Of a stretch of 64,000 bases of DNA, positions 51,432 to 64,000 are shown in pieces; the first letter of the stretch is position 1, and each line of letters starts with the position of its first letter. The notes under the pieces are model-generated. The model had not been told where the DNA came from. It was given only the letters and a program-made list of their open reading frames with translations, and did not search any database. This stretch comes from Maribellus maritimus (GTDB lineage Bacteria > Bacteroidota > Bacteroidia > Bacteroidales > Prolixibacteraceae). The DNA is taken from NCBI RefSeq assembly GCF_022267315.1, contig NZ_JAIKLE010000035.1, forward strand, positions 1 to 64,000, read 5' to 3'. The position numbers were made by a program, and so were the translations under genes.

Positions 51432-52765
<1,334 letters not shown>

Positions 52766-52774
52766 AGCGCAAAT

Positions 52775-52855
52775 TGTCATTTCGAATCCTGAGGTACGAG
52801 GGTGAGAAATCTGTTCTTGGAAAAGGATTTCTCCTCATTCTTCGTCGAAATGACA
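52775..52855. repeat. nif palindromic repeat family 1, copy 1 (nifH|nifI1)
   Basis: An 81-bp inverted repeat that begins TGTCATTTCGA and ends TCGAAATGACA. Inner arms GAGAAATC and GGATTTCTC surround a short centre. It lies 9 bp after the nifH stop. Confidence 0.85.
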
Positions 52856-52885
52856 AAAGAATAAATCATATAAAAATCAAAAATC

Positions 52886-52891
52886 AGGAGG
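52886..52891 (+). promoter_or_regulatory. Strong Shine-Dalgarno of nifI1
   Basis: AGGAGG seven bases before the ATG. Most genes in the window lack such a site, as usual in Bacteroidota. Confidence 0.75.
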
Positions 52892-52898
52892 AACAAAT

Positions 52899-53225
52899 AT
52901 GTTAATGATTAGAGCAATTATACGTCCCGACAAATCAAGTAAAGTTTTGAAAGCCCTTTTTGAGGCTGGTTATATAGCAGTTACAAAGATTCCTGTTGTT
53001 GGCCGGGGAAAACAAAGAGGGATAAAAATCGGGGATGTAACCTACGATGAGCTTCCCAAAGAGATGTTGATTATGGTAGTTAAAGATGAAGATAAAGACT
53101 TTGCAGTAACAACCATAATGGAAGCTGCCCGCACCGAACCAAAAGGTGTATTCGGAGATGGTAAAATTTTTATCTCTCCGGTTGAAGAAGCTTATACAAT
53201 TAGTAGAGGAACGAAAGAATTATAA
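52899..53225 (+). CDS. nifI1: Nitrogenase-regulating PII-like protein NifI1
   Basis: 108-residue GlnB/PII-family protein (MIRAIIRPDKSSKVLKALFE; VVGRGKQRGIKIGDV in the T-loop region; FGDGKIFISPVEEAYTI at the C-terminus). In Methanococcus and other anaerobes NifI1 and NifI2 form a complex that binds dinitrogenase and turns it off when ammonium is available and 2-oxoglutarate is low. Its position between nifH and nifD, next to nifI2, is the defining context. Confidence 0.93.
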   Translation: MLMIRAIIRPDKSSKVLKALFEAGYIAVTKIPVVGRGKQRGIKIGDVTYDELPKEMLIMVVKDEDKDFAVTTIMEAARTEPKGVFGDGKIFISPVEEAYTISRGTKEL

Positions 53226-53245
53226 ACCATTAAAGTTTTTGAATT

Positions 53246-53620
53246 ATGAGAATGATAATGGCTATAATCAAAATTGACAAAATGAATGAGACCAAACGTG
53301 CTTTAACTGAAGCCGGTATTACTTCAATGACGGCTACAGGTAAAGTGTTTGGAAGGGGGAAAGGCTTTTGGGATGCTAAAGTAATGGAGGGCGCAAAAAA
53401 AGATATGCCCGAAGCACTTGCACATCTTGGAAAAGAGCCCAGACTCAGACCTCAGCGTGTGTTGAATATTGCAGTTTCCGACCACAATGTTCAATTAACA
53501 ATCGATACAATTATTGAAGTTAACCAGACGCCTGCTCCCGGAGATGGAAAAATCTTTGTCCTTCCCCTGGATGATGCATTTCGGGTTCGTACCGGTGAAA
53601 CAGGCACGACAATTCTTTAA
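53246..53620 (+). CDS. nifI2: Nitrogenase-regulating PII-like protein NifI2
   Basis: 124-residue PII-family partner of NifI1, starting 20 bp after it. Motifs are MAIIKIDKMNETKRALTEAG, the longer T-loop GRGKGFWDAKVMEGAKKDMP and GDGKIFVLPLDDAFRVRTGE. The longer T-loop is typical of NifI2 against NifI1. nifD begins 16 bp later, so nifI1-nifI2-nifD-nifK is a tight block without repeats. Confidence 0.93.
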   Translation: MRMIMAIIKIDKMNETKRALTEAGITSMTATGKVFGRGKGFWDAKVMEGAKKDMPEALAHLGKEPRLRPQRVLNIAVSDHNVQLTIDTIIEVNQTPAPGDGKIFVLPLDDAFRVRTGETGTTIL

Positions 53621-53636
53621 TTAAAAAGACAAAATT

Positions 53637-55268
53637 ATGCCGAATAAAAAGAATTATACAAATGGACTTCCGGATCCTTCCGAATTAAAGGAAGAGATTC
53701 TGAAAAAATATCCAAGGAAGGTAGCTAAAAAAAGAGCAAAGGCGATGATCGTCAACGACCCTTCTGAAGGTCAGGAAATCATGGCTAATGTTCGCACCAT
53801 TCCCGGAATTATTACACAGAGAGGATGTACCTATGCAGGGTGTAAAGGTGTGGTTCTTGGTCCGACAAGAGATATTATAAATATTACACATGGGCCAATT
53901 GGTTGTGGTTTTTACAGCTGGCTAACCCGCCGTAACCAAACCAAACCTGCTGAAGGCGAAGACAATTATATGCCTTATGCATTTTCTACTGATATGCAGG
54001 ATGAGAATATTGTTTTTGGTGGTGAACAGAAATTGAAAACAGCCATTCGCGAAGCTTTTGAAATTTTTAAGCCAAGCGCAATCAGTATTTTTTCCACATG
54101 CCCGGTTGGGTTGATTGGAGACGATGTACACGCTGTTGCCCGTGAGATGAAAGCCGAACTTGGGATTAATATTTTTGGTTTCAGTTGCGAAGGTTATCGT
54201 GGAGTTTCTCAGTCCGCCGGTCACCACATCGCCAACAACGGAATTTTCAAACATGTTGTTGGAAATACTGATCGCGAACGTACCGGCAAATTTCAGGTGA
54301 ACCTGATGGGCGAGTACAATATTGGAGGCGATGCTTTCGAGATTGAAAGAATTTTCGAAGAATGCGGAATTACACTACTTTCAACTTATAGCGGAAACTC
54401 AACCGTTGAAAGCTTTGCGTATTCACATACTGCCGATTTGAACATGGTAATGTGTCACCGTTCCATCAACTACATTGCCGAGATGATGGAAGAAAAATAC
54501 GGCGTTCCATGGATTAAAGTAAACTTTATCGGTGCTGAATCTACTGCAAAATCGTTGCGAAAACTTGCTGACTATTTTGGAGATGATGAACTAAAAGCCA
54601 AAGTAGAGGAAGTTATTGAGCGCGAAATGGCTAAAGTGAAGAAAGTTGCTGAAGAGGTAAAACCCAAAGTGGAAGGGAAACTGGCCATGATGTTCGTAGG
54701 TGGTTCACGTGCCCATCATTACCAGGATTTATTTAAAGAATTAGGAATAAGAACCGTTTCTGCCGGTTATGAATTTGCACACCGCGACGATTATGAAGGA
54801 CGTGAAGTTATTCCAAATATTAAAATTGATGCCGATACCCGGAATATTGAAGATTTGGAAGTTACAAAAGATGAGGAACACTTCCGCGACGACCTGGTGA
54901 CCAAAAAGGCAAAACTGGAAAAAGAGGGTTACACATTTAAAGATTACCAGGGAATGATGCCTGAGATGTCGAAAAATGCCCTTGTTGTTGACGATGTAAA
55001 CCATTGGGAAACTGAAAAACTCATTGAATTCTACAAACCGGATATTTTCTGTGCCGGAATTAAAGAAAAATACGTGGTTCAAAAGTATGGAGTGCCATTA
55101 AAACAATTGCACTCATACGACTACGGCGGACCTTACGCTGCTTTTGGCGGTGCTGTTAATTTCTACAAAGAAATGGAACGAATGCTGGCAACCAACATAT
55201 GGAAACTGGTTGATGCTCCGTGGAAACACGAACCGGAGATTGTAGGAAGTATTTCAATTGAGGCTTAA
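53637..55268 (+). CDS. nifD: Nitrogenase MoFe protein alpha chain
   Basis: 543-residue alpha subunit of dinitrogenase. P-cluster ligands are Cys64 (QRGCTYAG), Cys90 (GPIGCG) and Cys155 (FSTCPVG). FeMo-cofactor ligands are Cys273 (VMCHRS) and His492 (QLHSYDY); Gln192 and His196 near the cofactor are kept in GVSQSAGHHIAN. An extra segment (about residues 387-440) is inserted before VVDDVNHWE, as in the Clostridium pasteurianum-type proteins. No delta-subunit gene lies between nifD and nifK and the motif pattern is that of Mo nitrogenase. It runs directly into nifK, 17 bp on. Confidence 0.97.
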   Translation: MPNKKNYTNGLPDPSELKEEILKKYPRKVAKKRAKAMIVNDPSEGQEIMANVRTIPGIITQRGCTYAGCKGVVLGPTRDIINITHGPIGCGFYSWLTRRNQTKPAEGEDNYMPYAFSTDMQDENIVFGGEQKLKTAIREAFEIFKPSAISIFSTCPVGLIGDDVHAVAREMKAELGINIFGFSCEGYRGVSQSAGHHIANNGIFKHVVGNTDRERTGKFQVNLMGEYNIGGDAFEIERIFEECGITLLSTYSGNSTVESFAYSHTADLNMVMCHRSINYIAEMMEEKYGVPWIKVNFIGAESTAKSLRKLADYFGDDELKAKVEEVIEREMAKVKKVAEEVKPKVEGKLAMMFVGGSRAHHYQDLFKELGIRTVSAGYEFAHRDDYEGREVIPNIKIDADTRNIEDLEVTKDEEHFRDDLVTKKAKLEKEGYTFKDYQGMMPEMSKNALVVDDVNHWETEKLIEFYKPDIFCAGIKEKYVVQKYGVPLKQLHSYDYGGPYAAFGGAVNFYKEMERMLATNIWKLVDAPWKHEPEIVGSISIEA

Positions 55269-55271
55269 AAT

Positions 55272-55277
55272 AGGAGG
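55272..55277 (+). promoter_or_regulatory. Strong Shine-Dalgarno of nifK
   Basis: AGGAGG eight bases before the nifK ATG, in a 17-bp nifD-nifK gap. Confidence 0.75.
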
Positions 55278-55285
55278 ACAAAATT

Positions 55286-56668
55286 ATGATACTACGTCAT
55301 ACAACAAAAGAAGTTAAGGAAAGAACCGCGTTGACTGTTAATCCGGCAAAAACATGCCAGCCGATTGGTGCAATGTATGCAGCTTTGGGTGTTCACGGAT
55401 GTTTGCCACACAGTCATGGTTCGCAAGGGTGTTGCTCGTACCACCGAAGTACGTTAACACGCCACTACAAAGAGCCGGTTATGGCATCAACAAGTTCATT
55501 TACCGAAGGTTCTTCCGTATTTGGTGGACAGGCTAACCTGTTGCAGGCAATCGATAATATCTTTGGAATTTACGATCCGGATATTATTGCTGTGCACTCT
55601 ACCTGTCTGTCTGAAACCATTGGAGATGACTTAGGCCAGATTGTAGGAAAAGCAAAAGATGACGGTAAAATTCCGGAAGGAAAACATGTAGTTCAGGCAT
55701 CAACACCAAGTTATGTGGGTTCTCATGTAACCGGTTATGCGAACATGGTGGAAGCATTTGTAAAATATTTCTCATTCAACACCAACGAGAAAATTCGCCA
55801 GGTAAACCTGCTTTCAGGCTGGGTAGAACCATCTGATATGAGAGAAATAAAGAGGATTACTGAAATGATGGACATCAAATCTGTACTTCTTCCTGATACA
55901 TCGGATGTGCTAGATACTCCAATGACCGGTAAATACAAAATGTATCCGAAAGGCGGAACAACAGTGGACGAAATTGTAAGCATGGGAAACAGCATGAAAA
56001 CAGTTGCCATGGGTGAGTGGTGCAGTAAAAAGGCTGCTATCATGCTCGACAATAAATGTAAGGTTCCATTTAGTTTAACAGATGTTCCGATTGGATTGAG
56101 TGCGACTGACCGTTTCGTGCAGGCACTTTCAACAGCAGGAAAGGTTTCTATCCCGGAAATAATTTCAGAAGAACGTGGCCGGTTAATAGATGTGATTACC
56201 GATATGCACCAGTATTTCTACGGAAAACGTGTTGCGCTCTGGGGAGACCCGGACACTTTGATTCCGTTGGTAGAATTCCTGGTTGACATCGATATGAAAC
56301 CGGTTTACATTGTTTCGGGAACTCCCGGAAAACGTTTCGACAAGAGGATGGAAGAGATACTTAGCGAAAAAGTTCCGGAAGCCAAATACAAAAACGGACC
56401 GCAGGCTGATATGTTCCTGATGCACCAGTGGATTAAGGAAGAGCCAGTGGATTTGTTAATTGGCAACACGTATGGTAAATACATTTCACGCGATGAAGGT
56501 ATTCCATTTGTTCGTCTTGGGTTCCCGATTCTTGACAGAATCGGACATAGCTACTTCCCAACAGTAGGTTATCAGGGAGCTATCCGCATTTTGGAAAAAA
56601 TCCTTGGTGAAATCATGGATGAACAAGATGCCAAATCACCGGAAGAGTCTTTCGAATTAGTAATGTAA
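55286..56668 (+). CDS. nifK: Nitrogenase MoFe protein beta chain
   Basis: 460-residue beta subunit. P-cluster ligands are Cys24 (AKTCQPIGA), Cys49 (HGSQGC) and Cys107 (HSTCLSETIGDD). The conserved Ser region ASTPSYVGSHVTGY is present. It lacks about 50 N-terminal residues found in the Azotobacter protein, as in clostridial-type NifK. It pairs with NifD to form the alpha2-beta2 enzyme. A family 1 palindrome follows its stop and separates it from nifE. Confidence 0.97.
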   Translation: MILRHTTKEVKERTALTVNPAKTCQPIGAMYAALGVHGCLPHSHGSQGCCSYHRSTLTRHYKEPVMASTSSFTEGSSVFGGQANLLQAIDNIFGIYDPDIIAVHSTCLSETIGDDLGQIVGKAKDDGKIPEGKHVVQASTPSYVGSHVTGYANMVEAFVKYFSFNTNEKIRQVNLLSGWVEPSDMREIKRITEMMDIKSVLLPDTSDVLDTPMTGKYKMYPKGGTTVDEIVSMGNSMKTVAMGEWCSKKAAIMLDNKCKVPFSLTDVPIGLSATDRFVQALSTAGKVSIPEIISEERGRLIDVITDMHQYFYGKRVALWGDPDTLIPLVEFLVDIDMKPVYIVSGTPGKRFDKRMEEILSEKVPEAKYKNGPQADMFLMHQWIKEEPVDLLIGNTYGKYISRDEGIPFVRLGFPILDRIGHSYFPTVGYQGAIRILEKILGEIMDEQDAKSPEESFELVM

Positions 56669-56684
56669 ATATTCCACAAATAGA

Positions 56685-56766
56685 TGTCATTTCGAACTTG
56701 AGGCACGAAAGTGAGAAATCTGTTTCAACGAAGAGATTTCTCAGTCGTACCTCCTTCGAAATGACA
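56685..56766. repeat. nif palindromic repeat family 1, copy 2 (nifK|nifE)
   Basis: An 82-bp inverted repeat, TGTCATTTCGA...TTCGAAATGACA, with inner GAGAAATC/GAGATTTCTC arms. It starts 16 bp after the nifK stop and ends 16 bp before the nifE ATG. Confidence 0.85.
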
Positions 56767-56782
56767 GGTAAAATGAACTACA

Positions 56783-58120
56783 ATGAATCAATTTCTGAAA
56801 GACAGGGAAACACAAATTGTGACCAAAGGGAAACAGAGCGCAGAAATCGCCTGCGAGAAGAAAAGTCTGGCGGGTTCAGTCAGCCAGCGGGCATGCGTGT
56901 TTTGTGGTTCAAGGGTAGTTTTGTATCCAATTGCTGATGCACTGCACGTTATTCACGGACCGGTTGGTTGCGCTTCTTACACCTGGGATATTCGGGGAGC
57001 ACTTTCATCGGGGCCGCAATTGCACCGTCTGAGTTTTACCACCGATTTAAAGGAAAAAGATGTGGTTTTTGGCGGTGAAAAGAAATTGTATCATGCACTT
57101 TCTGAATTAATCGACAAGCATCAGCCGAAAGCCGCGTTCGTTTTTTCAACCTGTATTATTGGTGTTATCGGCGATGATGTGGAAGCCGTTTGCCGCCAGG
57201 TTACACGCGAAAAAGGAATTGATGTAATTCCGGTAATGTCGGAAGGTTTTAACGGAACCAAAAAAGATGGCTACAAAATTGCCTGCGGAGCGCTTTCAAG
57301 GTTGGTAGGAACCGACGATTCTTACAAGCCTTCAAAATACTCTATTAATATATTGGGTGATTTTAACCTTGCCGGCGAGCTTTGGATTCTTGCTGAATAT
57401 TATAAGAAATTGGGTGTTGAACTGGTTTCCTGCATGACCGGCGACGGCCGCGTGGAACAGATTCGCCGGGCACACAAAGCTACTTTGAATGTGGTTCAGT
57501 GTTCGGGGTCAATGGTGCATCTGGCAAAAGAAATGGAAGAAAAGTACGGCATTCCGTTTATGAAGGTTTCCTATTTCGGAATTGAGGACATGTCGGATGC
57601 TTTGTACGAAGTGGCTCGTTTTTTCAAAGATGAGGAGATGATGCAAAATGCCCGTGAACTGGTTCGCGAAGAAATTTCGCAATTGCTTCCGGCGTTGCAA
57701 CCGTATCGTCAAAAATTGGAAGGCAAAAAAGCAGCCATTTATGTGGGGGGGGCTTTTAAAGCCATTTCATTGGTAAAAGCCTTGCGTTTACTTGGAATGA
57801 AAACGGTAGTTGTTGGTTCACAAACCGGAAATGCCGACGATTACAAATTGCTCAAAGAATTGTGCGACGACGGAACCATCATCGTTGACGACTCCAACCC
57901 GAATGAACTTTCAGAATTTGTAAAACTTACAGGAGCCAACCTCTTTATCGGAGGAGTAAAAGAACGCCCGATTGCTCATAAGCTGGGTTTAGGTTTTTGC
58001 GATCATAATCACGAACGGAAAGAAGCCCTCGCCGGATATGTCGGCATGATGAACTTCGCCAAAGAAGTATATGCATCGGTTACCAGCCCTGTTTGGAAAT
58101 TTATTAACAGCCCCACCTAA
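56783..58120 (+). CDS. nifE: FeMo-cofactor scaffold protein NifE
   Basis: 445-residue NifD paralogue that with NifN receives NifB-cofactor and matures it to FeMo-co. Cys38 and Cys41 (RACVFCGSR), Cys63 (GPVGCASYTW) and Cys124 (FSTCIIGVIGDD) are visible. MSEGFNGTKKDGYKIAC and the NAGELWILAEYY-like stretch mark NifE rather than NifD. The last codons (…NSPT, stop at 58118-58120) are read out of a family 2 repeat that begins at 58108, so the natural C-terminus may have been replaced. Confidence 0.95.
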   Translation: MNQFLKDRETQIVTKGKQSAEIACEKKSLAGSVSQRACVFCGSRVVLYPIADALHVIHGPVGCASYTWDIRGALSSGPQLHRLSFTTDLKEKDVVFGGEKKLYHALSELIDKHQPKAAFVFSTCIIGVIGDDVEAVCRQVTREKGIDVIPVMSEGFNGTKKDGYKIACGALSRLVGTDDSYKPSKYSINILGDFNLAGELWILAEYYKKLGVELVSCMTGDGRVEQIRRAHKATLNVVQCSGSMVHLAKEMEEKYGIPFMKVSYFGIEDMSDALYEVARFFKDEEMMQNARELVREEISQLLPALQPYRQKLEGKKAAIYVGGAFKAISLVKALRLLGMKTVVVGSQTGNADDYKLLKELCDDGTIIVDDSNPNELSEFVKLTGANLFIGGVKERPIAHKLGLGFCDHNHERKEALAGYVGMMNFAKEVYASVTSPVWKFINSPT

Positions 58121-58144
58121 CCTCCCCAAAGGGGAGGAACTGAG
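58108..58144. repeat. nif palindromic repeat family 2, left arm at nifE stop
   Basis: A 37-bp C/G-rich element (CAGCCCCACC...core CCTCCCCAAAGGGGAGG). It contains the nifE stop codon. Its reverse complement matches the second in-frame element of nifN (58251-58287) at 31 of 37 positions. Confidence 0.85.
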
Positions 58145-58184
58145 AAAGAAGATTACTGAGTTGTAAAACTGAAAAAGTATTGAA

Positions 58185-59651
58185 ATGAAAAACACAAATG
58201 GAAATACGATTCTTAACTCCCCTCCCTTGGAGGGGCGGGGGGCGGCCGTTCTTAACTCCTCCCCTTTGGGGAGGTCGGGAGGGGCTGTTTCTACTCAAAA
58301 TGCCTGCAAACTCTGTTCTCCGCTCGGAGCGAGTGTTGCCTACAAAGGATTCGAAGGTTGTGTACCGCTAATTCATGGTTCGCAGGGATGCGCCACATAC
58401 ATTCGCCGTTATTTAATCAGCCACTACAAAGAACCCATCGACATTGCTTCGTCAAATTTTACGGAAGACTCTACCATCTTCGGGGGTGATAGAAATTTTA
58501 AAATTGCTGCACAGAATATTATCAATCAGTACAAGCCGCAAATCATTGGAATTTCTACTACCTGCCTGAGTGAAACGATTGGAGACGATATTACGCTGTT
58601 TCTTCATGAATTGAAGAGTGAAGATTTTGACGGGAACGTTGAATTTGTTGTGGCTTCAACTCCCAGTTACCAGGGGACTCACATCGACGGGTTTCATGAA
58701 GCTGTGGCTGCGGTGGTTCGTAAATTTGCCAAAAAAGGAAATACCGGCAACCACATTAATTTGTTTCCCGGTTTTATTTCTACCGAAGATATTCGCTTAC
58801 TAAAAGAAATTGTTGCCGATTTCGGAATTGAAACAGCTATTCTTCCCGATTATTCTGAAAGTTTAGACAATCCGGTTTGGGATACCTACAAACGAATTCC
58901 TGAAGGTGGAACAACTATGGAAGAAGTTGAACGAAGCGGTTCAGCCAAAGCTTCCATCGAATTTGGAACAGTATTGAACTTAGGAAAATTGAGTGGGCGG
59001 GTGAAAAATCAGAACCTGACCAAAACCGCAGCTCAGTACCTGGAAAAAGAAATGGATGTTCCGTTGGTGCGCTTACCAATGCCCATTGGAATTACGCAAA
59101 CCGACCGTTTTTTTGAAGAACTTGAAAAGTTAACAGGAAAGAAAACTACTGAAAAATATACGAAGCAACGTGGCCGTTTGGTCGATGCCTATGTTGATGC
59201 GCACAAATATGTTTTCGGAAAGAAAGCCGTGGTTTACGGTGAAGAAGATTTTGTGGTGGGTATGTGTGCTTTCCTCGATGAAATAGGAATTGAAATTGTA
59301 CTGGCTGCGTCGGGCGGTGAAAGTGGCTTGCTCGAAAAAGAAATTTTAAAGCACTGTCCTGAAAATGGCGAAAAAATAACTGTTCGCGAAGGTTTCGATT
59401 TTGAATCGATACGTGAATGGAGTATTACTAACAAACCTGATATTTTGGTTGGCCACAGCAAAGGCTACTACATTGCCCGCGAATTGGAAATACCGATTGT
59501 TCGGGTAGGTTTCCCCATTCATGACCGTATTGGCGGACAACGTATCAAGCACCTGGGCTATGCTGGAACCCAGGAACTCTTCGACAAAATTGTAAACACA
59601 CTAATAGAATACAAACAAGACTCATCACCGGTGGGATATAAATATATGTAA
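58185..59651 (+). CDS. nifN: FeMo-cofactor scaffold protein NifN with repeat-encoded N-terminal extension
   Basis: 488-residue NifK paralogue and partner of NifE. The conserved part starts at about residue 36 with STQNACKLCSPLGASVAYKG, then HGSQGCATYIRRYLISHYKE, SSNFTEDSTIFGG, STTCLSETIGDD and ASTPSYQGTHIDGFHE. Before it, residues 10-35 are two tandem in-frame copies of the family 2 repeat (LNSPPLEGRGAAV and LNSSPLGRSGGAV). The ATG at 58185 is the only ATG before the conserved region, so the extension is probably translated. The repeat arm at the nifE stop can pair with this segment, enclosing the start codon. Confidence 0.93.
   Translation: MKNTNGNTILNSPPLEGRGAAVLNSSPLGRSGGAVSTQNACKLCSPLGASVAYKGFEGCVPLIHGSQGCATYIRRYLISHYKEPIDIASSNFTEDSTIFGGDRNFKIAAQNIINQYKPQIIGISTTCLSETIGDDITLFLHELKSEDFDGNVEFVVASTPSYQGTHIDGFHEAVAAVVRKFAKKGNTGNHINLFPGFISTEDIRLLKEIVADFGIETAILPDYSESLDNPVWDTYKRIPEGGTTMEEVERSGSAKASIEFGTVLNLGKLSGRVKNQNLTKTAAQYLEKEMDVPLVRLPMPIGITQTDRFFEELEKLTGKKTTEKYTKQRGRLVDAYVDAHKYVFGKKAVVYGEEDFVVGMCAFLDEIGIEIVLAASGGESGLLEKEILKHCPENGEKITVREGFDFESIREWSITNKPDILVGHSKGYYIARELEIPIVRVGFPIHDRIGGQRIKHLGYAGTQELFDKIVNTLIEYKQDSSPVGYKYM
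58212..58287. repeat. nif palindromic repeat family 2, two in-frame copies inside nifN
   Basis: Tandem elements at 58212-58246 and 58251-58287, each starting CTTAACTCC. Both are translated without a stop into Ser/Gly/Arg-rich peptides. Confidence 0.85.
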
Positions 59652-59680
59652 AGCCCCTCCTAACCTCCCCAAGGGGAGGA
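59652..59680. repeat. nif palindromic repeat family 2, left arm after nifN stop
   Basis: AGCCCCTCCTAACCTCCCCA followed by AGGGGAGGA. It starts one base after the nifN stop and is in opposite orientation to the element inside nifB. Confidence 0.85.
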
Positions 59681-59720
59681 AAAAAGGAAAATAAATTATG
59701 AAACTTAAAAATGAATAGAA

Positions 59721-61037
59721 ATGAAAGATAAAAATACGAATGCTATTCAAAACTCCCTCTCTCTTGGAGAGGGTTGGGGAGAGGCTCTTAGGAAACATCC
59801 ATGTTTCAATAAAGAAGCAAAAGGAAAATATGCCCGGGTTCACCTGCCGGTAGCGCCACAGTGCAACATTCAGTGTAATTATTGCAAACGCGGTTTCGAT
59901 TGTGTAAACGAAAGCCGTCCGGGTGTAACCAGCGAAGTATTGTCGCCGGAACAGGCGTTGGCTTATACTATTCGATTAAAAGAAAAAATGCCGCATCTCT
60001 CGGTAGTTGGAATTGCCGGGCCTGGCGATCCGTTTGCCAATCCAATTCAAACGATGACAACTTTGCGTTTGATTCGGAAAGAATTTCCGGAGATGGTGCT
60101 GTGTCTTTCAACCAACGGGTTGAATGTGTTGCCGTACATCGAAGAATTAAAAGAACTGAATGTGAGTCATGTGACGGTTACTTTAAACGGAACCGAGCCC
60201 GAGACACTTTCAAAAATATACAAATGGGTGCGTTTCGAAAAACGGGGTTATTTCGGAAAACAAGCCGCTGAAATCCTGCTGAAAAATCAGATGGAAGCGA
60301 TTCGCGCTTTAAAAGGCGTTGGATTTATTGTGAAAGTAAATACCATTGTTGTTCCGGGAATTAATGATGATAAAGTAGGTGAAATTGCTGCTGCCATGAA
60401 AGAAATGGGAGTGGATGTGATGAATACCATTCCGCTTTACCCGGTGGAAGGAACTCCGTTTGCTGAAGTCGAAGAGCCGTCTTCTTCTTTCATGAAAGAA
60501 ATTCGGAAGGAAGTTCGTAAACACTTGCCGCCAATGACACATTGTTCCCGTTGCCGTGCCGATGCAGTAGGATTATTGGGGCAGGACGACCCGGAAGCAA
60601 AACGTATTCTTTCTGAAGTTTCATGTCTTTCAGTAAATATGGATGAATCGCGGCCAAACGTTGCGGTTGCCAGTTACGAAGGATTATTGGTAAACCAACA
60701 TTTGGGAGAAGCACAACAGCTTTTTATTTTCCGCGAAACGCCAAATGGATACAAAATGCTGGAACAACGTCCAACACCAAAACCAGGAGCCGGAAATTCC
60801 CGCTGGAAAGAATTGGGAGAAGTAATCAGCGATTGCCGCGCATTGTTGGTTGGCGGAATTGGGCCATCACCGTCTTCCATTCTTGGACGTTCGGGAATAA
60901 AAATCATGGAAATGACCGGTTTAATCGACGACGGGCTGGATGCCGTTTACAAAGGCAAGGAATTAAAAACACTGAAAAAGAAAGACGTGTTTAAATGTGG
61001 CGCTGAGTGTTCAGGCAAAGGAACTGGGTGTGGGTAA
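59721..61037 (+). CDS. nifB: NifB radical SAM protein with fused NifX-like domain
   Basis: 438 residues; makes the 8Fe-9S-C NifB-cofactor. The radical SAM motif is Cys48-x3-Cys52-x2-Cys55 (APQCNIQCNYCKRGFDC), with the nearby SRPGVTSEVLSPEQA and GIAGPGDPFANP. Conserved HCSRCRADAVG marks the C-terminal end of the core. From about residue 312 a dinitrogenase Fe-Mo cofactor-binding (NifX/NafY) domain is fused, ending with a Cys-rich FKCGAECSGKGTGCG tail. Residues 11-24 (NSLSLGEGWGEAL) are a translated family 2 repeat ahead of the expected start of the family. Confidence 0.95.
   Translation: MKDKNTNAIQNSLSLGEGWGEALRKHPCFNKEAKGKYARVHLPVAPQCNIQCNYCKRGFDCVNESRPGVTSEVLSPEQALAYTIRLKEKMPHLSVVGIAGPGDPFANPIQTMTTLRLIRKEFPEMVLCLSTNGLNVLPYIEELKELNVSHVTVTLNGTEPETLSKIYKWVRFEKRGYFGKQAAEILLKNQMEAIRALKGVGFIVKVNTIVVPGINDDKVGEIAAAMKEMGVDVMNTIPLYPVEGTPFAEVEEPSSSFMKEIRKEVRKHLPPMTHCSRCRADAVGLLGQDDPEAKRILSEVSCLSVNMDESRPNVAVASYEGLLVNQHLGEAQQLFIFRETPNGYKMLEQRPTPKPGAGNSRWKELGEVISDCRALLVGGIGPSPSSILGRSGIKIMEMTGLIDDGLDAVYKGKELKTLKKKDVFKCGAECSGKGTGCG
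59751..59786. repeat. nif palindromic repeat family 2, in-frame copy inside nifB
   Basis: AACTCCCTCTCTCTTGGAGA and a GGGTTGGGGAGAGGCT continuation, translated as NSLSLGEGWGEA. It is inverted relative to the element after the nifN stop; the nifB ATG lies between them. Confidence 0.85.
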
Positions 61038-61039
61038 AA

Positions 61040-61075
61040 AGCCCCTCCTTACCTCTCCAAGGGGAGGGACTAGAG
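61040..61075. repeat. nif palindromic repeat family 2, left arm after nifB stop
   Basis: AGCCCCTCCTTACCTCTCCA followed by AGGGGAGGGACTAGAG, three bases after the nifB stop. Confidence 0.85.
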
Positions 61076-61104
61076 AAAGAATATAAGAATTAAACTGATT
61101 TGAG

Positions 61105-61515
61105 ATGAATGATATTAAAAGAAAAGCTATTCCAAACTTCTCTCCTTTGGAGGGGGTGGGGGAGGCTTATCGAATAGCAGTTACAACAAGCAACGGTGAA
61201 AAAGTTGATCAGCATTTTGGGAAAGCAACCAGTTTCAATATCTACGATGTGGAAGACGGTGCTTTAAAAATGGTTGATTTGCGCCAGGTAGAATCGTATT
61301 GCGAATGTGAAAATGGAGAACCTGTAGATCCAAATCACAAGTTTGCGCCGGATCGGTTTTCCAAAGTAAAAGAAATCATAAAAGATTGCGAAAAGTTATA
61401 TACGCTTCAAATTGGTGACGTTCCAAAGGAGAAACTTGAAATTGTTGGAATTGCCGTTCAGGAATGCAAGTGTGCAATCGACAAAATTCCAAACTGCAAA
61501 GGAGAATGTAAATAA
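61105..61515 (+). CDS. NifX/NafY-type cofactor-binding protein
   Basis: 136 residues with one dinitrogenase iron-molybdenum cofactor domain (YRIAVTTSNGEKVDQHFGKA, residues 22-41, with the conserved HFG). A Cys-rich ending follows (CECENGE; CKCAIDKIPNCKGEC) that could bind a metal cluster. Residues 10-21 are a translated family 2 repeat (NFSPLEGVGEA), as in NifN and NifB. It probably shuttles or holds NifB-co/FeMo-co precursors. A nifX symbol is plausible, but NafY- and NifB-tail-like proteins look alike. Confidence 0.85.
   Translation: MNDIKRKAIPNFSPLEGVGEAYRIAVTTSNGEKVDQHFGKATSFNIYDVEDGALKMVDLRQVESYCECENGEPVDPNHKFAPDRFSKVKEIIKDCEKLYTLQIGDVPKEKLEIVGIAVQECKCAIDKIPNCKGECK
61135..61168. repeat. 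nif palindromic repeat family 2, in-frame copy inside the nifX-like gene
   Basis: AACTTCTCTCCTTTGGAGGG with GGTGGGGGAGGCTT, translated in frame. It is inverted relative to the arm at 61040-61075, with the ATG at 61105 between. Confidence 0.85.
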
Positions 61516-61523
61516 AAGATAAA

Positions 61524-61602
61524 TGTCATTTCGACGACGAAGGAGGAGAAATCTGTTTCCTTTTTGCTGAGATTTCTCAGTCATACTTCCTTCGAAATGA
61601 CA
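61524..61602. repeat. nif palindromic repeat family 1, copy 3 (nifX|ferredoxin)
   Basis: A 79-bp inverted repeat, TGTCATTTCGA...TTCGAAATGACA, with inner GAGAAATC/GAGATTTCTC arms, between the nifX-like stop and the ferredoxin ATG at 61631. Confidence 0.85.
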
Positions 61603-61630
61603 GAAAAGAATTAAATAGAAAATTACAAAA

Positions 61631-61936
61631 ATGAAAAAACCAGATTATCACATTTTAGTTTGCAACTCGTACCGGGTTGCTGGCGATGCCAAAGGCTACT
61701 GTAATAAAAACGGCGCGGCCGATTTTATACAATATATAATGGAAGAATGCAACGACCGCGGATTAGATGTTGCTGTTTCTTCAACGGCATGTTTAAATGT
61801 TTGCTCACAAGGGCCGGTTATGGTAATCCATCCTAATAATTATTGGTACGGCGGATTAACCGAAGAAAAAATTGACGAAATATTAGACGCACTCGAAGAG
61901 GGGGAGGCTGTTGAGGATTATCTCATCAGTGATTAA
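61631..61936 (+). CDS. Thioredoxin-like [2Fe-2S] ferredoxin
   Basis: 101 residues. Four Cys at 11, 24, 54 and 58 (C-x12-C-x29-C-x3-C; HILVCNSYR, GYCNKNG, STACLNVCSQGP) match the thioredoxin-fold [2Fe-2S] ferredoxins often found in nif clusters. It may carry electrons in cofactor assembly or to NifH. The role is inferred from position. It is the only electron carrier gene seen in the operon. Confidence 0.9.
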   Translation: MKKPDYHILVCNSYRVAGDAKGYCNKNGAADFIQYIMEECNDRGLDVAVSSTACLNVCSQGPVMVIHPNNYWYGGLTEEKIDEILDALEEGEAVEDYLISD

Positions 61937-62005
61937 TTTAAAGAGCTTGCTGTATTTCACTTCGTTATAATTCCCCCTCTTTTTTAAAATTAATTTTTAA
62001 AACAA

Positions 62006-63136
62006 ATGAAAAATCCACATCTAATCGATACAACACTACGCGACGGAGAGCAGGCGCCGGGTGTGGTTTTTTCTTTGGAAGAAAAAATTGAAATTGCGCG
62101 CCGGTTAGATGAAATTGGAATTCCTGAACTTGAAATAGGGACACCTGCAATTGGAAAAAATGAGCAGAACGACATTCGTTGTCTTATTAGCCAGGGATTT
62201 TCTTTTGATTCTACCTGCTGGGCGCGGGCAACAAAAAACGATTTGGAAGCTTCGTTGAAATGTGGCGCCAAACGCGTTAATCTTTCCTTTCCTGTTTCCG
62301 ATGTGCAATTAAAAGCCATCGAGAAATCAAGAAACTGGGTAATGGATTCCATTCCTGAAATTATGGAATTTGCTGCAGATTCATTTGAATTTGTTGCCGT
62401 TGGTGCGCAAGATGCTTCGCGTGCCGATATTCAATTTTTAAAAGAATACATTTCTGTCGTAAAATATTTTGGAGCCAAACGAATAAGAATTGCTGACACT
62501 GTGGGAGTTATGAACCCCGTGAGTGTGCAGAATCTTTTTGGTATTCTTGCCGATACTTTTCCTGAAATGGATTTTGAATTTCATGGGCACAACGATTTGG
62601 GAATGGCAACAGCAAATCATGCAGTTGCCTTAACTTCCGGCGCTTCTTCGGTCAGTTTAACCGTAAACGGACTTGGTGAACGCGCAGGAAATGCACCTTT
62701 GGAAGAAGTGATTTTTGCGCTGAAATACTCGTACGGTATCGATCCTGGTTTTGATGGGAAACTGCTCGTAGAACTTTCGTCTTATATTGAAAGAATCTCT
62801 GGAAGAAAATTATCCATTTCAAAACCGGTCACAGGAGAAATGGCTTTTTCGCACGAATCAGGTATTCACTGCCGCAGTTTGAAAGAAAACTTGTTGACTT
62901 ATCAACCTTTCAACCCTGAAGAAATAGGAAAAGAAACCATATTTATTATCGGAAAACATTCCGGAACAGGTGCATTAACCGATTTTCTGGCCAAACGAAA
63001 TATCTTTTTATCGAAAACCGAAACCACTGATTTGGTTATAAAAATCAAATCATTATCAACCCAATTAAAACGAGACCTGAACTTCACTGAAATTCAAAAT
63101 TTAATTCAAAAGAAACAACTTAATTTTTCAGTATGA
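62006..63136 (+). CDS. nifV: Homocitrate synthase
   Basis: 376 residues; condenses acetyl-CoA with 2-oxoglutarate to make homocitrate, the organic ligand of FeMo-co. The family start is LIDTTLRDGEQAPGVVFSLE. RIADTVGVMNP, the metal motif FHGHNDLGMATAN and NGLGERAGNAPLEEV follow, then SHESGIHCRSL. The length suits NifV rather than the roughly 500-residue isopropylmalate synthases. Its TGA overlaps the ATG of the next gene (63133-63136). Confidence 0.93.
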   Translation: MKNPHLIDTTLRDGEQAPGVVFSLEEKIEIARRLDEIGIPELEIGTPAIGKNEQNDIRCLISQGFSFDSTCWARATKNDLEASLKCGAKRVNLSFPVSDVQLKAIEKSRNWVMDSIPEIMEFAADSFEFVAVGAQDASRADIQFLKEYISVVKYFGAKRIRIADTVGVMNPVSVQNLFGILADTFPEMDFEFHGHNDLGMATANHAVALTSGASSVSLTVNGLGERAGNAPLEEVIFALKYSYGIDPGFDGKLLVELSSYIERISGRKLSISKPVTGEMAFSHESGIHCRSLKENLLTYQPFNPEEIGKETIFIIGKHSGTGALTDFLAKRNIFLSKTETTDLVIKIKSLSTQLKRDLNFTEIQNLIQKKQLNFSV

Positions 63137-64000
63137 AGTTTAAAATTGCAACTACAATGTTGTTGGTTTCATTTTTTGGAAAGTTTGTTTCAGGAAATGA
63201 ATCTGATGAGGAGAAATTTAAACCCACTATTTCTCCCTATTTAAAAGTTCAGTTTTGGAATGTTTACAGTGAAGGAATCCAGTCGGCAGATGGAGCACGC
63301 ACTCAAGAGCGTTTAGCTTCCTATTTCCGAAGGGGGCGTGCCGGATTAAAAGGGAATTTATTGCCTGAAATAAGTTACAATTTTATGGTGTCATTTGATT
63401 ACCTGGCAAAAGACGAGAATCTATCAACCAAAGGAACTGCAAGTGCCGGAACCTTTAGTATCTGGAGTTTTTATTTTACGTGGAAGTTAAATTCTGAAAA
63501 CGATTGGCTGAATATTACAGGAGGTTATTTCTTGCCGCATTTGAGCAGGGAATCAACTACTTCGCCCTGGACCGTTAGTTCACTTGATAAAACTGAAACT
63601 TCGTGCTATCTCCGTCAGTTTGTAACGGGTAAAACCAATGGAATTTCCCCGGGAATAAACATAGGAGGAACGGGCAAAATTGGTACACCAACTTTATTAT
63701 ATAATTTTTCGTGTGTCAACCGGCAGGATAAAACAAGTATTCAGACAGAAAGTTGGTCGCCCGTGCTGCTGGGGCATTTTATGTTGAATTTGGGCGATAG
63801 TGAATTTCAGAGGTATAAATACACTTTTTCAAATAATATTTTAAAAAAACAAAAAAGTGCGACCTTGGGAGTTGGATTCTCAAAACACGGAGAAACTGAC
63901 GCATTTGAATCTTCTTCAACGATTGGCGCTGATGCAACCATTTATTTGGGAGGCCTGAAAATGGATGGTGAATATTACCGATTGTCCCGGAAAAATGAAT
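63133..64000 (+). CDS. Porin-like outer-membrane protein (3' end outside window)
   Basis: An open frame of 289 codons from the ATG at 63133 to the window edge; the start overlaps the nifV stop as ATGA. A signal peptide (MKFKIATTMLLVSFFGKFVSG) precedes a beta-rich sequence with alternating aromatics. FRRGRAGLKGNLLPEISYNF followed by FDYLAKDE fits the phosphate-selective porin O/P family. Further strands such as FSIWSFYFTWKL and YTFSNNILKK suggest a barrel. Being coupled to nifV it should be expressed with the nif genes. What it lets through is unknown. Confidence 0.75.
   Translation, partial: MKFKIATTMLLVSFFGKFVSGNESDEEKFKPTISPYLKVQFWNVYSEGIQSADGARTQERLASYFRRGRAGLKGNLLPEISYNFMVSFDYLAKDENLSTKGTASAGTFSIWSFYFTWKLNSENDWLNITGGYFLPHLSRESTTSPWTVSSLDKTETSCYLRQFVTGKTNGISPGINIGGTGKIGTPTLLYNFSCVNRQDKTSIQTESWSPVLLGHFMLNLGDSEFQRYKYTFSNNILKKQKSATLGVGFSKHGETDAFESSSTIGADATIYLGGLKMDGEYYRLSRKNE

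Follow-up and report, generated by a model that had tools for sequence, protein, structure and literature searches.

The nif operon of Maribellus maritimus lies within a 64-kb stretch of contig C130 of its genome (G000; 7.33 Mb, 201 contigs), hereafter the window, and palindromic repeats of two families occupy six of the operon's junctions. A reading made earlier from the sequence alone had placed Family 1 at nifH|nifI1, nifK|nifE and nifX|ferredoxin (fdx) and Family 2 at nifE|nifN, nifN|nifB and nifB|nifX, and all six were found where it had put them. The three full Family 1 copies, which are 79-82 nt long and fold strongly, are solo palindromes without an assigned strand, at 52775..52855 (nifH|nifI1; fold z -3.39), 56685..56766 (nifK|nifE; z -8.60, -40 kcal/mol) and 61524..61602 (nifX|ferredoxin; z -4.24). 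The nifI1-nifI2-nifD-nifK block between them (52899..56668, + strand) is free of repeats in a motif scan, as had been noted, and in the other 51 kb of the window, where full copies had been reported absent by eye, the scan gave only single-arm matches with one mismatch.

Family 2 elements consist of two inverted ends of ~30-40 nt that flank an AT-rich spacer of ~60-70 nt. On the + strand, the first extends from the end of nifE to the start of nifN (58107..58288; inverted ends of 41 nt, 85%), with its left end at 58107-58146 and a right end made of two units at 39-nt spacing, 58210-58248 and 58249-58287; the elements at nifN|nifB (59652..59786) and nifB|nifX (61041..61167), also on the + strand, have two inverted ends each. 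The sequence-only reading had assigned one core to the family, and this core, CCTCCCCAAAGGGGAGG, occurs at nifE|nifN only, the other two junctions carrying CCTCCCCAAGGGGAGG / CCTCTCCAAGGGGAGG. It had also taken the elements as intergenic, which is right as to the junctions and wrong as to their extent, since the right half of each encodes the N-terminus of NifN, NifB or NifX, within the downstream gene. The left ends overlap the upstream stop codon (nifE, 58118..58120, + strand) or directly adjoin it (nifN, nifB), and NifE here ends in ..WKFINSPT, compared with ..WKFIK and ..WKFVK in G031, the closest relative, and G005. Compared with shuffled sequence, the short hairpins of Family 2 show a modest gain in stability at best (six stretches, z -2.43 to -0.13). 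Judged from their sequence, the repeats look like solo forms of nuclease-bearing palindromes, some of which took over gene starts, which would be more far-reaching than the proposal that they divide the operon into mRNA modules.

Copies that carry a nuclease gene were found in the same group of genomes, in 3.1 Mb of fetched sequence screened for GIY-YIG homologues. On contig C168 of the M. maritimus genome (locus L034), two Family 1 arms enclose a 100-codon GIY-YIG open reading frame (ORF; PF01541), so that the palindrome has the gene at its apex, in the order trpE-trpG-trpD-trpC-GIY-YIG-trpF-trpB. In G029 (L203) the arms again stand on both sides of a GIY-YIG ORF, which has a frame change near its C-terminus, and in G016 (L352) an arm is seen on the one side of the gene that lies inside the locus. 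These belong to four distinct homologues, of which L034 and L203 had been fetched for a nearby Family 1 copy and L352 together with trpG. For Family 2, the ends flank a DUF559 segment that lies in frame inside isoleucyl-tRNA synthetase (IleRS) in M. maritimus (L394) and in G031 (L396); the segment in M. maritimus matches PF04480, and its flanks match positions 461-555 and 562-629 of the ileS profile TIGR00392. The in-frame insertion measures ~150 codons (C179 near 155215; G031 C1 near 1923917). DUF559 was present in 4/40 fetched Family 2 core loci, in all four touching the core or within ~160 nt of it, and a DUF559 homologue stands at a Family 2 end, or no more than ~160 nt from it, in G029 (in valyl-tRNA synthetase), G019, G006, G030 and G013, the homologues of G006 and G013 holding a stop codon. 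Both families thus share both ends with a gene-bearing copy (L034 and L203; L394 and L396), as miniature inverted-repeat transposable elements (MITEs) do. A full Family 1 element would accordingly be a palindrome of 80 nt whose apex holds a GIY-YIG nuclease gene of ~100 codons, and in a full Family 2 element a DUF559 (restriction-endonuclease-like) gene would lie between the double-hairpin ends known from the solo copies, and we suggest that these nucleases move the palindromes.

The distribution of the two families was surveyed in 101 genomes including that of M. maritimus, 36 of them of the same genus. Family 1 is present in 29 (own included), among them 26 of the 36 congeners, with a maximum of 37 copies in G007. 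The possibility, raised with the sequence-only reading, that genome-wide repeats had inserted in nif holds on this count for the genus. In M. maritimus the three exact copies in 7.33 Mb are all in nif; blastn added diverged copies on C168, in the trp operon, and a weak one on C110 beside the thioredoxin gene trxA, so that in this genome Family 1 has few places other than nif and trp. Across 18 nif-bearing genomes of the genus, 12/184 exact copies fall in the nif operon against 0.365 expected; the count rests on exact ends and misses slightly changed copies (for example at nifK|nifE of G007 and nifX|fdx of G013), and the 12 are not independent because inheritance accounts in part for copies that share a junction. 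The placement of repeats in nif is non-random. At nifX|fdx, both Family 1 arms occur in 9 of 17 same-genus operons and a single arm in 2 more; by eye, the palindrome there has opposite orientations in L097 (G008) and L099 (G013). Of 21 copies at 20 loci of two genomes, 15 stand between co-directional genes, 4 between convergent and 1 between divergent ones, and 1 inside a called ORF. The trp operon of M. maritimus (L034 4927-11272, on C168) holds Family 1 copies, the GIY-YIG gene and a repeat-encoded TrpG start, and trpE|trpG carries Family 1 in four other species (G015, G005, G024, G009).

The exact Family 2 core was found in 31/101 genomes. Counted as distinct places from overlapping rows, with an end pattern that was built from the window's own copies and favours that subtype, Family 2 ends occupy 12 places in M. 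maritimus (3 in nif, 1 in trp), and those in nif make up 4/4 in G009, 3/7 in G029 and 2/9 in G031; G006, which has no NifN match, has 1/4 at trpG, and G008 and G012 gave none with this pattern. With a strict right-end pattern, 61 genomes gave 16 occurrences, of which 5 lie in nif. Right ends vary among the core loci L149-L188 (for example GTCCCCCTTCGGGGGATTTAGGGGGT), and Family 2 is therefore a group of related subtypes. Within the genus, elements of both families would thus enter operon junctions, with nif and trp prominent among them.

The contents of the nif junctions turn over between species. The nif genes of the window and of G031 are 86-96% identical in nucleotide sequence, yet their junctions differ: nifH|nifI1 of G031 is an empty site, a 41-nt gap without Family 1, and nifE|nifN measures 6 nt from stop to start in both G031 and G020. 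At nifK|nifE, M. maritimus, G031 and G020 have three mutually unrelated hairpin-forming sequences. We folded the junctions of nif operons from 26 relatives, one of them partial, and took z<=-2 as structured, excluding long junctions (600-700 nt or more) and those with a gene missing. Structure was most frequent at nifK|nifE (23/25 operons, own included) and nifX|fdx (19/20, without collapse of related sequences), followed by fdx|nifV (17/24), nifN|nifB (15/26), nifE|nifN (14/27), nifD|nifK (8/26, so that the clean nifD-nifK junction of the window is not general), nifH|nifI1 (7/26), nifB|nifX (6/18), nifI1|nifI2 (2/26) and nifI2|nifD (0/23), compared with 34% of 106 co-directional control gaps, drawn from 20 stretches of 20 kb in which ORFs were called by a simple procedure. 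In 80 further nif loci the counts were 41/65 for nifK|nifE, 11/74 for nifD|nifK, 11/62 for nifH|nifI1 and 20/75 for nifE|nifN. At nifD|nifK, similar structured inserts of 138-139 nt, unlike Family 1 and 2, were seen in five species (L095, L097, L102, L107 and L115).

These counts were then pooled, duplicates dropped (L229, L230, L231, L256, L274 and L287, which repeat genomes already included, and G048 were omitted), gaps restricted to at least 70 nt and related sequences merged into groups. In this form nifK|nifE is structured in 21/28 groups against 33/92 for control gaps (Fisher p=4e-4, uncorrected for the choice of junction), while nifE|nifN (7/20) and nifH|nifI1 (5/17) do not exceed the controls; nifN|nifB gave 7/18 and nifI2|nifD 3/8. 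The nifK|nifE gap is also the one most often long among seven junctions (70/85 operons). The proposed separation of structural from cofactor genes by a hairpin is thus supported at this junction, where the gap is in most Bacteroidota nif operons long and hairpin-forming; elsewhere the support is weak, and no rule for six junctions emerges.

In 12 species that have one common nifK|nifE hairpin, its structure is conserved through compensatory changes: 99.2% of the cells are paired, two pairs are changed on both sides (7 cells), and the covariation score of 0.135, compared with 0.074 in shuffled alignments, is reached by 0/500 shuffles. The number of double-changed pairs (155/500 shuffles) and the pair types (102/500) are unexceptional. 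The junction bears a hairpin in most species while the sequence changes, and Family 1 thus sits at a place that usually bears some hairpin, of replaceable sequence. It would there have taken the place that unrelated hairpins hold in other species, and would most likely serve, as an RNA hairpin, to protect or process the part of the mRNA that encodes nifHDK, with the cofactor genes expressed separately. The repeats may in this way affect mRNA and protein levels.

A second consequence concerns gene starts. The start codons of nifN (58185..59651, + strand; repeat-encoded N-terminus MKNTNGNTILNSPPLEGRGAAVLNSSPLGRSGGAV, PF00148 from residue 44), nifB (59721..61037, +; MKDKNTNAIQNSLSLGEGWGEA) and nifX (61105..61515, +; MNDIKRKAIPNFSPLEGVGEA), at 58185, 59721 and 61105, are Family 2 element sequence. 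Downstream of the element, an in-frame ATG, GTG or TTG is first reached at residue index 73 for nifB and at index 48 for nifX, and for nifN the 400 nt examined contain none; the TTG and GTG codons in the right ends at nifN and nifX belong to the repeat itself. The captured genes that were read have lost the native ATG; in three other Family 2 insertions, at nifB|nifX of G009 and G013 and at nifX|fdx of G031, it is still present a few bases past the element. Repeat-encoded N-termini occur in NifN of G000, G009, G029 and G053, with G040 of similar look, in NifB of G000, G031, G026, G029 and G053, and in NifX of G000; the NifN match of G029 (L115) ends at residue 353 of 453, possibly through a frameshift or an assembly error. 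A peptide filter applied to the 80 further nif loci found NifN in L233, L237, L239 and L270 and NifB in L233, others being similar by eye, and one stretch ahead of NifE in L238, upstream of its Met. TrpG was matched in 50 genomes, 30 of which had loci, and in 8 of these 30 loci its start is captured (G000, G031, G017, G027, G022, G006, G029 and G016).

A detector of N-terminal palindromes missed nifB and nifX in its first version and was widened afterwards, so that the NifN, NifB and NifX of M. maritimus are detected by design in the second; this version also flags nifN of G009, G053 and G029 and nifB of G031, G026, G053 and G029, does not flag nifN of G040, and gave no hit among 278 ORFs of the control stretches and 32 other ORFs of the window. 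In each of 10 cases compared, openness of the captured AUG exceeds that of the old site (medians 0.645 vs 0.375; 0.55 for native nif starts, n=139). In Bacteroidetes, initiation proceeds without a Shine-Dalgarno sequence and is tuned by mRNA structure and upstream adenines, according to the part of the Flavobacterium johnsoniae study drawn on here (PMC6847099). One may therefore suppose that Family 2 took over the start codons of nifN, nifB, nifX and trpG in the following way. The hairpin next to the old AUG would have blocked it, the AT-rich spacer would supply an open AUG that took over, and the right-hand hairpin would be read in frame as the new N-terminus. The proteins would then carry the N-termini that we read.

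Relatives of the two nucleases were also found far outside the genus. When 72,556 plasmid records were searched by tblastn with the GIY-YIG protein, 31 records matched, all below 60% identity and mostly from other phyla; no relative was confirmed in IMG/VR. From the plasmid records we took 14/31 GIY-YIG and 9/39 DUF559 loci, picked for different strains (in four the match alone fixed the ORF boundaries), and scored inverted repeats within 150 nt of the ORF, with a cut-off of at least 14 and a control 95th percentile of 10.0. GIY-YIG genes lie between inverted palindromes in 10/13 scored loci, compared with 2/93 control coding sequences, the other genes of these and of the DUF559 loci (Fisher p=6e-10), and the two controls are an IS4 transposase with its own inverted repeats and a coding sequence bordering the Picosynechococcus DUF559 gene. 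A further Shinella GIY-YIG locus scores 32.5. Typical flanks are CGTCATCCTCGGGCTTGACCCGAGGATCCA and CGTCATCCCCGCGAAGGCGGGGATCCA, which by eye resemble the CGTC-tagged repetitive extragenic palindromic (REP) sequences as far as these are described in a 2013 survey (PMC3733652). The DUF559 loci that reach 14 are those of Deinococcus aetherius, with the Family 2-like CCCCTCTCCCAACCCTCTCCCGCAAGGGGAGAGGG, and Picosynechococcus sp. PCC 7003.

Taken together, we consider it probable, if well short of certain, that the six nif repeats are solo copies of two nuclease-linked mobile palindromes, which act as junction hairpins and capture gene starts. A number of observations weigh against this explanation. 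Movement of a copy was not seen, and Family 1 arms are absent around the weak GIY-YIG homologue of L225 (33% identity). On the plasmid score the GIY-YIG copies of M. maritimus and G029 reach 11.0 and seven DUF559 loci of the genus group 7.0-8.5, all below the cut-off, and these were recognised by motif. Among the plasmid loci, GIY-YIG falls below 14 in 3/13 (Spirosoma 12.0, though of GTCATCC type, R. tumorigenes 7.5 and Photobacterium 8.0), one locus below the cut-off stands for 8 similar Rhizobium records, and DUF559 has flanking palindromes in only 2/9 scored loci (39 records). Long gaps are often structured also at nifI1|nifI2 (9/15 groups) and nifD|nifK (10/20), and nifK|nifE is therefore not unique in kind. 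As to the gene starts, the trpG capture in G000 and G031 reads the repeat in another frame, and the detector also flags nifH of G056, probably by chance. The comparison of AUG openness puts the old start beside the hairpin by construction, and cases from related species are not independent.

Alternatively, the repeats could be neutral REP- or MITE-like sequences that pile up without a role in tolerant operon junctions, with nif and trp richer owing to DNA exchange of these operons between species. Both families occur dispersed through the genus, the nifK|nifE copy is 90% identical over 81 nt to that at the same junction of G007, and over the 3' end of nifK (56151-56668) identity to G031 drops from ~0.9 to ~0.8, so that this copy may have arrived with a short recombination tract. 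The operon genes nevertheless remain close to those of G031 while the junction contents differ, and recurrent unrelated hairpins at nifK|nifE, together with compensatory changes, are not expected of neutral sequence, and we therefore regard the neutral account as unlikely though deserving of attention. Acquisition of the entire nif operon from a species rich in repeats was rejected as the cause of the local concentration, since gene identity to G031 is high throughout and the junctions differ. A replacement of nifB in G020 was also rejected (97% to G031, 86% to G020).

Strong hairpins after nifK and nifX might suggest that transcription is cut between modules by intrinsic terminators or by attenuators. 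No + strand site with a GC-rich hairpin and a T-run on the coding strand lies at a repeat (10 sites against 12.2 expected), the printed hairpin tails contain no run of five T and several are empty, the fold reaching the end of the gap; one - strand terminator-like site lies in a Family 2 right end (59755-59773). Termination at the repeats is accordingly improbable. We give still less credence to REPIN-type elements (paired REPs) moved by a REP-associated tyrosine transposase (RAYT), a Y1 enzyme, even though the repeats have inverted ends and Y1_Tnp genes occur in 85/101 genomes. A Family 1 or 2 pair surrounds the Y1_Tnp gene in 0/30 and 0/26 retained loci, with single arms in few, and RAYT was rejected as the mover on this basis; moreover, G007 has the most Family 1 copies (37) but 2 Y1_Tnp genes, and G031 has 14 and no exact copy.

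The preferred explanation, nuclease-linked palindromes, can be compared with known repeat systems as far as the cited sources were covered. The CGTC-tagged REP super-family resembles the nif repeats in being short palindromes between co-directional genes that sometimes add amino acids to a neighbour and have no RAYT, and the authors of the survey state that a dedicated transposase is lacking (PMC3733652). Likewise, no tyrosine transposase flanks our repeats in the 56 Y1_Tnp loci scanned, which are part of those in these genomes. The Rhizobiaceae GIY-YIG genes are flanked by CGTCATCC...GGATCCA palindromes that look like CGTC REPs by eye. Family 1 itself departs from the definition of an unpaired CGTC tag at one end, a 20-40 nt unit and a 4-5 nt loop: it starts with TGTC, its tips are paired and it measures ~80 nt (79-82 nt). 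In the parts of that survey considered, the term GIY-YIG does not appear (PMC3733652). Rickettsia palindromic elements (RPEs) similarly lie in frame inside host proteins (PMC10969869, PMC3733652), and in-frame palindromes are predicted here in NifN, NifB, NifX, TrpG and IleRS; as RPEs are described in those sources, Family 2 is set apart by replacing the starts of operon genes and by a full form that carries DUF559. In REPIN/RAYT systems, too, inverted repeats occur in pairs as the non-autonomous form of an element that carries a gene (PMC3116915, PMC6006769), whereas the gene linked to the families here is a GIY-YIG or DUF559 nuclease. Bacteroidetes tyrosine-transposase genes are reported to be flanked by atypical structures (PMC6006769), and the scanned Y1_Tnp loci gave no such association for either family. 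Enterobacterial RU sequences, small mobile elements with ORFs, share with our repeats that they can be read as protein inside genes; their description, to which the comparison is confined, gives no nuclease link (PMC2759123). In Anabaena, stem-loops in the nif1 cluster have likewise been linked to transcript stability, although they stand at 5' processing sites (nifH1) and the hairpin here, likened to them by description, follows nifK and derives from mobile repeats (PMC4284476). Rfam covariance models gave no match up to E 0.1 in 51500-63500. Among the listed titles and abstract openings of the open-access literature, which takes in few subscription papers and no bioRxiv preprints, we found neither GIY-YIG or DUF559 genes inside palindromic repeats nor such repeats in Bacteroidota nif operons; their absence from print is not thereby shown.

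With this in mind, one may speculate more broadly, and we put it forward tentatively, that the two families belong to a cross-phylum kind of minimal mobile element, a palindrome moved by the nuclease at its apex, GIY-YIG for the GTCAT type (including the CGTC REPs) and DUF559 for the CCCCTAACCCTCCCC type. According to this speculation, the solo copies would be the REP-like repeats of many bacteria and would become mRNA modules or gene starts at operon junctions. Which enzyme moves CGTC-type repeats is an open question, as the portion of the survey drawn on presents it (PMC3733652), and the GIY-YIG link would offer a concrete candidate. The nif case adds hairpin turnover at a fixed operon position, together with a mobile repeat that would give start codons to nitrogenase assembly proteins, and both bear on how operons tune stoichiometry. 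On plasmids, the gap between sufB and sufC holds a GIY-YIG gene in A. lipoferum (L441 4998-5291) and a DUF559 gene in S. parapaucimobilis (L451 698-1108).

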